A stretch of 64,000 bases of DNA from Prochlorococcus sp. AH-736-L23 (GTDB taxonomy: Bacteria; Cyanobacteriota; Cyanobacteriia; PCC-6307; Cyanobiaceae), in contig JAOIPS010000004.1 of the NCBI GenBank assembly GCA_028141225.1, positions 1 through 64,000 on the forward strand. The letters are read 5' to 3'. The position numbers and the translations under genes are program-made. Positions 9,178-61,012 of this stretch are shown here, in pieces. Under the pieces are notes generated by a model, which searched no databases, was not told the DNA's origin, and worked only from the letters and a program-made list of their open reading frames with translations. The number at the start of each line of letters is the position of its first letter. The stretch's first letter is position 1.

Positions 9178-9588
9178 TTAAAATAACAACTTTATTTTAG
9201 GAACAAAGATATATACAGCAATAATAACAGAATTAATGGAAGCTAATAATACTGCTCCTGCAGAAGTATCTTTTGAAATTTTAGCCAAAATACTAAATTC
9301 TTTTTTCACTACTAAATCAACGATTGATTCAATAGATGTGTTCAATATTTCTAATACTAAAACAGACATTATTGTTGCAATCAAAATAACATAATTACTT
9401 AGACTAATTTTTAGTAAAAAACCAATTATTAAACTTGCAACTGCAAAAATTAATTGAATTTTAAAATTTCTTGAAGTTTTAAATACATAACTAATACCAC
9501 TGAAAGCATACTTAAAACTTATAAATACATTACTAGAAGTTTTGTATGATTCTTTTCTATTTTCTAAATTGTTTATTTTTTTTTCCAT
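9178..9588 (-). CDS. dgkA: Diacylglycerol/undecaprenol kinase (DgkA-like)
   Basis: Three TM segments; VLVLEILNTSIESIVDLV and KDTSAGAVLLASI motifs. Confidence 0.85.
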   Translation of the reverse strand: MEKKINNLENRKESYKTSSNVFISFKYAFSGISYVFKTSRNFKIQLIFAVASLIIGFLLKISLSNYVILIATIMSVLVLEILNTSIESIVDLVVKKEFSILAKISKDTSAGAVLLASINSVIIAVYIFVPKIKLLF

Positions 9589-9594
9589 TTATTT

Positions 9595-10134
9595 TTAATC
9601 TAATCGAGTAATTAAATATTCTTGGAAATTTAACATATTTTCTAAATCATGCTCATCATTATGTTCCCATCCCAAAAGATGTAAAAATCCATGACTAGCC
9701 AACCAGATCATCTCTCTATAGATTGAATGTTTATATTCATAAGATTGCTCAAGTGCCATCTCTAATGATATAAAAATATCTCCCAACTCTATATGATCTA
9801 AATTATTTAGAGATTCATCAGAAATAATTGGAAAAGATAGAACATCAGTTGGACCATTTTTTTGCATCCATTTCTTATTCAAAGAAGCAATTTCTTGATT
9901 AGATATTATCTGTAAGCCTAATGAAAAAGATTTTTTTTCAAAAATATAATTTGGTAATTCATAATCCTCTTTTTTTAATATAGTATTTATCCAAGATAAA
10001 AAAACTTTCTCCCAAAAAATAGATTCAAAAATAAGATGAGTTTTAGTATCTTTTAACTTATTTGAAAATTGAGAGAAATCATTACATTGAAAAACCAAAT
10101 CTAAATTTATTTCAGAAATAATTTTTTCTTTCAT
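9595..10134 (-). CDS. ybeY: Endoribonuclease YbeY (16S rRNA maturation)
   Basis: [32 protein letters not shown]. Confidence 0.92.
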
Positions 10135-60017: not shown

Positions 60018-60377
60018 ATGAAAAAGAATTCTATTATCTATTCTGATTTATCAAAAAAACAACTAGAAACTCTTAAAGAACTTTACATTCAAAAAAAAGT
60101 TGAATCGATGAGTCATCAAGAACTTAGACAATATGTATTAGAAATTATTTCTCATCAGATAAACGATACTATTGGCAAAGAAGAGGAAATGGAAGCATGG
60201 AAAGAAATGTCAGATTTTTTTGGGGAACAATTTGAAATAAATATTTTAGAAATACAAACAAAATATATTGACGATAAAAACGTAATTGAAACAGAAATAG
60301 ATTCTCAGAAGCAAAGAATAGAATTACTTGAAAGGAATAATTTAGATCAAGAGAAAAAGGATATGTGGGATGACTAA
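60018..60377 (+). CDS. Small hypothetical protein, charged, probably alpha-helical/coiled-coil C-terminus
   Basis: 119 aa complete ORF in an otherwise gene-poor interval. Confidence 0.65.
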   Translation: MKKNSIIYSDLSKKQLETLKELYIQKKVESMSHQELRQYVLEIISHQINDTIGKEEEMEAWKEMSDFFGEQFEINILEIQTKYIDDKNVIETEIDSQKQRIELLERNNLDQEKKDMWDD

Positions 60378-60657
60378 AATTTCCTGAATGGTGCAGTAAT
60401 TCATAGTATATAAAAGAAAATATGTCTAAATTTTAAAAAATGAAAATAAATCAAGGAGCTTATTTTTCACTTTATATAGAATTTTATATACGTTCTAATT
60501 ACTGTTATTAAAAAACGTTTTTTAAATTTTAAAATAATTATAAACAAATATAATCTAATTATTTTAAATGTTCTATATACTGTTCTAAAAAGTTCATCAA
60601 ATATACTTATTTACATCTTCGGCTAAACACTATTTGACAAAAGAAGGTCAAAGAAAT

Positions 60658-60685
60658 AAAAAAGTCATCCTGTTAGGATGACTTT
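60658..60685 (-). terminator. Intrinsic terminator on the minus strand
   Basis: Perfect 11-bp inverted repeat AAAGTCATCCT-GTT-AGGATGACTTT; the minus-strand reading ends in a T-run (ACTTTTTTATTTC). Confidence 0.8.
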
Positions 60686-60780
60686 GGATAACTTTTTGGA
60701 ATGTATAAACACCCCTGGCGAAAGTCGGGGAGACCTCACCTGATAGTGCCTGACTGAACCTGATATAAGAAATCGAAGAA
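60686..60780 (-). ncRNA. Candidate small structured RNA between two minus-strand terminators
   Basis: GC-rich stretch in AT-rich surroundings; minus strand reads GGTTCAGTCAGGCACTATCAGGTGAGGTCTCCCCGACTTTCGCCAGGGGTG, can form hairpins, followed by a strong terminator. 5' boundary is a guess. Confidence 0.4.
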
Positions 60781-60788
60781 AAGATATA

Positions 60789-60810
60789 TTTCACGACCAT
60801 TTCACGACCA
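60789..60810. repeat. Perfect tandem duplication of an 11-bp unit
   Basis: TTTCACGACCA at 60789-60799 repeated at 60800-60810. Confidence 0.85.
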
Positions 60811-60840
60811 TCACAATTAATTTGATTCCAATAGGGCATT

Positions 60841-60874
60841 AAAAAAGACCTCAAGTAAATTAACTTGAAGTCTT
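60841..60874 (-). terminator. Intrinsic terminator of the tRNA-Asn transcript
   Basis: AAGACCTCAAGT-AAATTA-ACTTGAAGTCTT (one G-U wobble on the minus strand), followed on the minus strand by TTTTTT; lies just 3' of the tRNA. Confidence 0.78.
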
Positions 60875-60891
60875 AAGAACCCGTTATTGAA

Positions 60892-60963
<72 letters not shown>

Positions 60964-61012
60964 ATATAAAATGAATTTAGCTCTTTAAAGTACCTTATGA
61001 CAAGTACAAGGG

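Follow-up and report, generated by a model that had tools for sequence, protein, structure and literature searches.

What is the GC-rich segment that lies between two minus-strand terminators downstream of tRNA-Asn in Prochlorococcus sp. AH-736-L23? We analysed it within a stretch of 64,000 nucleotides (the window). The original prediction offered two identities for this segment, either an uncharacterised small RNA or the remnant of an element that had used the tRNA 3' end as its attachment site. The features of the region on which the discussion relies are the following.

60891-60964, minus strand: tRNA-Asn(GTT), found by ARAGORN and Rfam.
3' end of tRNA-Asn, minus strand: attB/attL half, GCCCGGGGAG followed by TT.
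60890-60901, minus strand: left core GCCCGGGGAGTT, common to the tRNA 3' end; in relatives this core is present at both ends of the elements.
60709-60890, minus strand: gene-less mini-element insert of 182 bp, delimited by flank alignment and by the junction match to locus L054.
60841-60874, minus strand: element-borne replacement terminator for tRNA-Asn, detected by a terminator scan (stem 60845-60874, 12 pairs).
60790-60811, minus strand: two tandem direct repeats of 11 bp, ATGGTCGTGAA, putatively arm-type recombinase-binding sites and the deletion junction.
60710-60789, minus strand: right arm, which corresponds to the GC-rich structured segment of the original prediction, kept in the right ends of 17 other elements.
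60708-60719, minus strand: right core GCCAGGGGTGTT, the attR copy of the tRNA 3' end, with 2 mismatches to GCCCGGGGAGTT.
60661-60685, minus strand: native terminator of tRNA-Asn, now 182 bp further off (11-pair stem); it adjoins tRNA-Asn in the genomes with an empty site.

When positions 60709-60890, whose boundaries have an ambiguity due to a shared TT, are removed from the window, the joined sequence is colinear with the empty site of L054 (95.3% identity over 383 bp, with a gap-free junction). These 182 bp were therefore inserted in the window. A contiguous alignment across the joined site was obtained in 46 loci. Moreover, when a 241-nt region was compared with the genus, many matches covered query positions 171-241 alone, and in the matched genomes these start at the tRNA-Asn 3' end; the order at empty sites is CCCGCCCGGGGAG, then directly TTTATAxATTCC and the terminator. 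The state of the site was classed with a BLAST anchor in 76 named loci: 39 are empty, 5 contain an insert of at most 300 bp and 9 an insert of 0.8-2.4 kb (for L062, in this last class, the distance comes from a partial flank match). For the remaining loci, the tRNA lies outside the available DNA (14), the site is at a contig edge (3) or the flank is unrecognisable (6). Inspection by eye of the unrecognised loci revealed more inserts, including a stacked mini-element in L052. Among the 67 named sites that are clearly either empty or occupied, 28 are occupied. At least 80 Prochlorococcus loci contain the 119-aa ORF beside the site (60018-60377, plus strand) at 87-97% identity, and it was used as an anchor.

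The two T-tailed minus-strand terminators had been correctly recognised: the scan returned exactly 2 sites 3' of tRNA-Asn, against 0.5 +/- 0.8 in shuffled sequences. The deduction that the second one implies a separate transcript does not hold, because the tRNA-Asn 3' end abuts the same terminator in many Prochlorococcus genomes. Judged from these alignments, the second terminator is that of tRNA-Asn itself, displaced by the insert. The first terminator ends about 43 nt beyond tRNA-Asn. Occupied sites yielded 29 distinct left arms, and a terminator-like site, with the end of its stem 42-46 nt after the tRNA, is present in 21 of them (1.7% in shuffles); this fixed distance indicates that the elements at tRNA-Asn bring a replacement terminator with them. 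At this position, it should restore the termination of tRNA-Asn. The remaining effect of the 182-bp unit would be a new terminator for tRNA-Asn, with the old one shifted away.

The elements found at tRNA-Asn in relatives measure 0.6-14.6 kb, have the same cores at both ends and are sometimes stacked. Among the cargo checked were a type I restriction system, a type II restriction enzyme with its methyltransferase, a type IIG-like restriction protein, an MrcB_N/NOV_C protein and a PDC-S02-like nuclease. In five loci (L038 at G035:C170:30000-49900, L036, L037, L033 and L032), the cargo is mostly related to restriction or defence, and these elements often consist of a single system or gene each, without a recombinase gene. 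Recombinase-free elements of 0.6-3.8 kb are common at this site. The gene for a recombinase of 436-448 aa is present in some larger elements, about 500 bp inward of the right core; the protein shows an HxxR...GH...Y pattern and matches Pfam integrase N-terminal domains weakly. The recombinases of the site were missed by PF00589 and found with a protein query. Their position and motif suggest that a tyrosine recombinase belongs to these element ends. No homologue was detected in the host assembly (G000), which is 75% complete, so that the gene could be missing from it. Two loci illustrate how these elements are arranged and how they decay. In L048 (4482-6603, genome G050), a recombinase-bearing element is followed by a 623-bp unit, whose 11-bp repeats match in both arms, and then by a 1.5-kb unit. 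In L050 (G022:C1), a recombinase remnant of about 57 codons (9572-9742, minus strand), whose frame ends at TAA, sits in a 3.8-kb element and marks an intermediate step in the decay of full elements into gene-less ones.

In full elements, 11-bp repeats match in both arms. They vary from element to element, and the left and right repeats of the same element are closer to each other than permuted pairs (mean distance 0.71 vs. 3.02; p=0.0002, n=7). These repeats resemble arm-type binding sites, and their role would be to bind an element-specific recombinase. The ATGGTCGTGAA pair is the only tandem repeat with an 11-bp period in the whole window. In addition, TCAGG occurs in the right arm at a 10-bp spacing (60739, 60749 and 60759), and CTCCCCG (60726-60732), also in the right arm, is the inverted complement of CGGGGAG in the core. 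There is no gene within the insert.

The window matches a 1.26-kb element of another genome (G030) in two pieces: one is the left arm, which extends through the repeats (97%), the other the right arm, which starts with them (88%). These two pieces overlap only at the 11-bp repeat. Nine other mini-elements, of 182-247 bp, are built on the same plan; their arms differ, as do most of their repeats. A single repeat array was found in 8 of the 10 mini-elements, beginning 102-107 bp from the end of the right core in 7 of these 8. The other two (L125 and L131) lack a clear array; repeat-mediated deletion is thus not the account for all mini-elements, and these two may have another origin. A genus-wide pattern search, strict enough to miss the window itself, added one new mini-element (in G207). 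A second family of mini-elements (L105, L052 and L028/L109) has another right arm, TTCAGGTGACTGCAGTTTGATTCAAAACGA, and repeats around TGCTGGTGATG; its members lie directly at the tRNA or are stacked with other elements.

Sequence comparison thus establishes the insertion, the tRNA-end cores on both sides, the homology of the arms with those of larger elements and the fixed position of the terminator. We conclude, with a probability of about 0.88, that the segment is a 182-bp gene-less remnant of a site-specific integrative element that uses the tRNA-Asn 3' end as its attachment site. On this point the original prediction was right, as the empty sites, the cores at both ends and the arms common to full elements all indicate. 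Since the window corresponds to the left and right arms of the G030 element joined at the repeat, the best reading of the unit is a gene-less "solo-arm" deletion derivative. Its ancestor would have been integrated by a tyrosine recombinase of the kind found in the larger elements, with the cores and the 11-bp repeats in the arms as its sites. The recombinase and the cargo would then have been lost when left-arm and right-arm repeats recombined or when replication slipped from one to the other. The simplest account of the product is a solo-arm scar composed of the left arm, one repeat array and the right arm. No donor carrying the exact arms of the window plus cargo was found. The unit is probably immobile now, given that it contains no recombinase, that none of this family was detected in the host assembly and that its right core is mutated, this last argument being the weak point. 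The right core is mutated in 6 of 10 mini-elements and in 9 of 22 larger elements (hand count), i.e. with no clear enrichment in mini-elements, so that such a mutation is by itself no proof of fossilisation.

Instead of a scar left by deletion in place, the unit might be a mini-element that is still mobile, non-autonomous (MITE-like) and moved in trans by the recombinases of its full relatives. We regard this as unlikely, although several observations speak for it. Mini-elements of comparable size and organisation are found again and again in diverse genomes, and also stacked by other elements (L052, L028/L109); 4 out of 10 have an intact right core; and the frequency of recombinase-free elements of 0.6-3.8 kb makes movement in trans plausible. 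However, the right core of the window carries two mismatches, the host assembly contains no second copy of the insert and 150 other genomes contain no contiguous one. Furthermore, the ends of the mini-elements match different families of full elements, the mini-elements are not near-identical copies, and the viral contigs searched contain neither an attP-like junction nor an exact attP-like or repeat sequence. It is still less likely that the units of 180-250 bp are functional minimal elements, made of recombinase sites and a replacement tRNA terminator, and moved or refilled with cargo by the recombinases of relatives. If this were true, these gene-less units would offer defence genes a landing pad that can be reused.

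It is highly improbable that the segment yields a minus-strand small RNA of its own that stops at the second terminator. The observations that had suggested it are real: in addition to the strong terminator, 51 nt of the segment reach 60.8% GC, against 31.2% for the window (a richness reached by only 0.02% of 51-nt windows), and the two hairpins that had been drawn are both able to form (-10.3 and -6.3 kcal/mol). However, the second terminator is native to tRNA-Asn. With Rfam, at both gathering and relaxed thresholds, the tRNA alone was above threshold, and the sole strong sub-threshold match over the segment was Phe_leader (25.6 bits vs. a gathering threshold of 55). The consensus fold built from 18 right arms retains 4 pairs with zero compensatory changes, and the proposed hairpin pairs in 55.6% of cells vs. 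54.3% in shuffles, with no covariation. The whole 241 nt give a folding z of -6.6, and the conserved arm of 107 nt, once the terminators are excluded, is no more stable than its shuffled versions (z of -0.2 with mononucleotide shuffling); the former value therefore most likely comes from the two terminators. No promoter-like site was found by the scan inside the insert, and the segment is absent wherever the tRNA-Asn site is empty. Since neither an additional Rfam family nor covariation nor a promoter-like site in the insert was detected, the proposal of an uncharacterised small RNA is not supported, and a separate transcript from the segment appears to have no support either.

Finally, the tail of a decayed protein gene (a 68-aa minus-strand ORF, 60648-60854) can practically be discounted, even though short reading frames of a similar kind cross the right arms of other elements, because this frame runs through the right core and stops in the native terminator, which means that a shared peptide follows from conserved att-region DNA, and because the elements diverge at the repeats.

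What had been a possible small RNA thus becomes a dissected integration site. In Prochlorococcus, tRNA-Asn is a hotspot for small elements whose cargo consists of restriction and defence genes. Their layout is readable: a core, a terminator at a fixed distance, and element-specific 11-bp repeats matched across the arms. It gives testable predictions about the pairing of recombinases with element ends and about how streamlined genomes shed islands. Caution is also needed with orphan terminators beside tRNA genes, each of which can be a displaced native terminator instead of the end of a small RNA.

Several known systems resemble the unit of the window. Solo LTRs and MITEs derive from their parents by internal deletion, only the ends and one repeat copy being left. 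By analogy, the unit consists of ends with a single repeat array and has lost its interior, although it comes from an element with a site-specific recombinase, inserted in a tRNA gene, and not from a retroelement or a DDE transposon. The tycheposons of Prochlorococcus, as reportedly described by Hackl et al. (Cell, 2023), use the 3' end of tRNA genes as their attachment site. According to PMC10872708, which cites that study, these are cargo-carrying elements of 4-200 kb, located at tRNA genes (seven in Prochlorococcus) and encoding a tyrosine recombinase. The unit of the window shares with them the genus, the location at a tRNA 3' end and the partial tRNA copy at the far end; its full relatives at tRNA-Asn share the tyrosine recombinase and are cargo-carrying islands. 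In contrast, the unit has 182 bp, no recombinase and no cargo, vs. the 4-200 kb given for tycheposons (PMC10872708), and some of the full relatives are single-gene elements of less than 2 kb. CIMEs have lost the genes for integration and transfer but kept attL and attR, and undergo accretion with new arrivals (PMC5704250). Here, no conjugative relative was seen, and the unit contains only arms, with a mutated right core and an apparent deletion at matching arm repeats. Like CIMEs, however, it is decayed, recombinase-less and att-flanked, with an intact attL core, an attR core bearing two mismatches and no genes, and such units are stacked with others at one site. CIME is its closest functional description. 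From its sequence, the unit of the window is a decayed, CIME-like relative of tycheposon-type elements.
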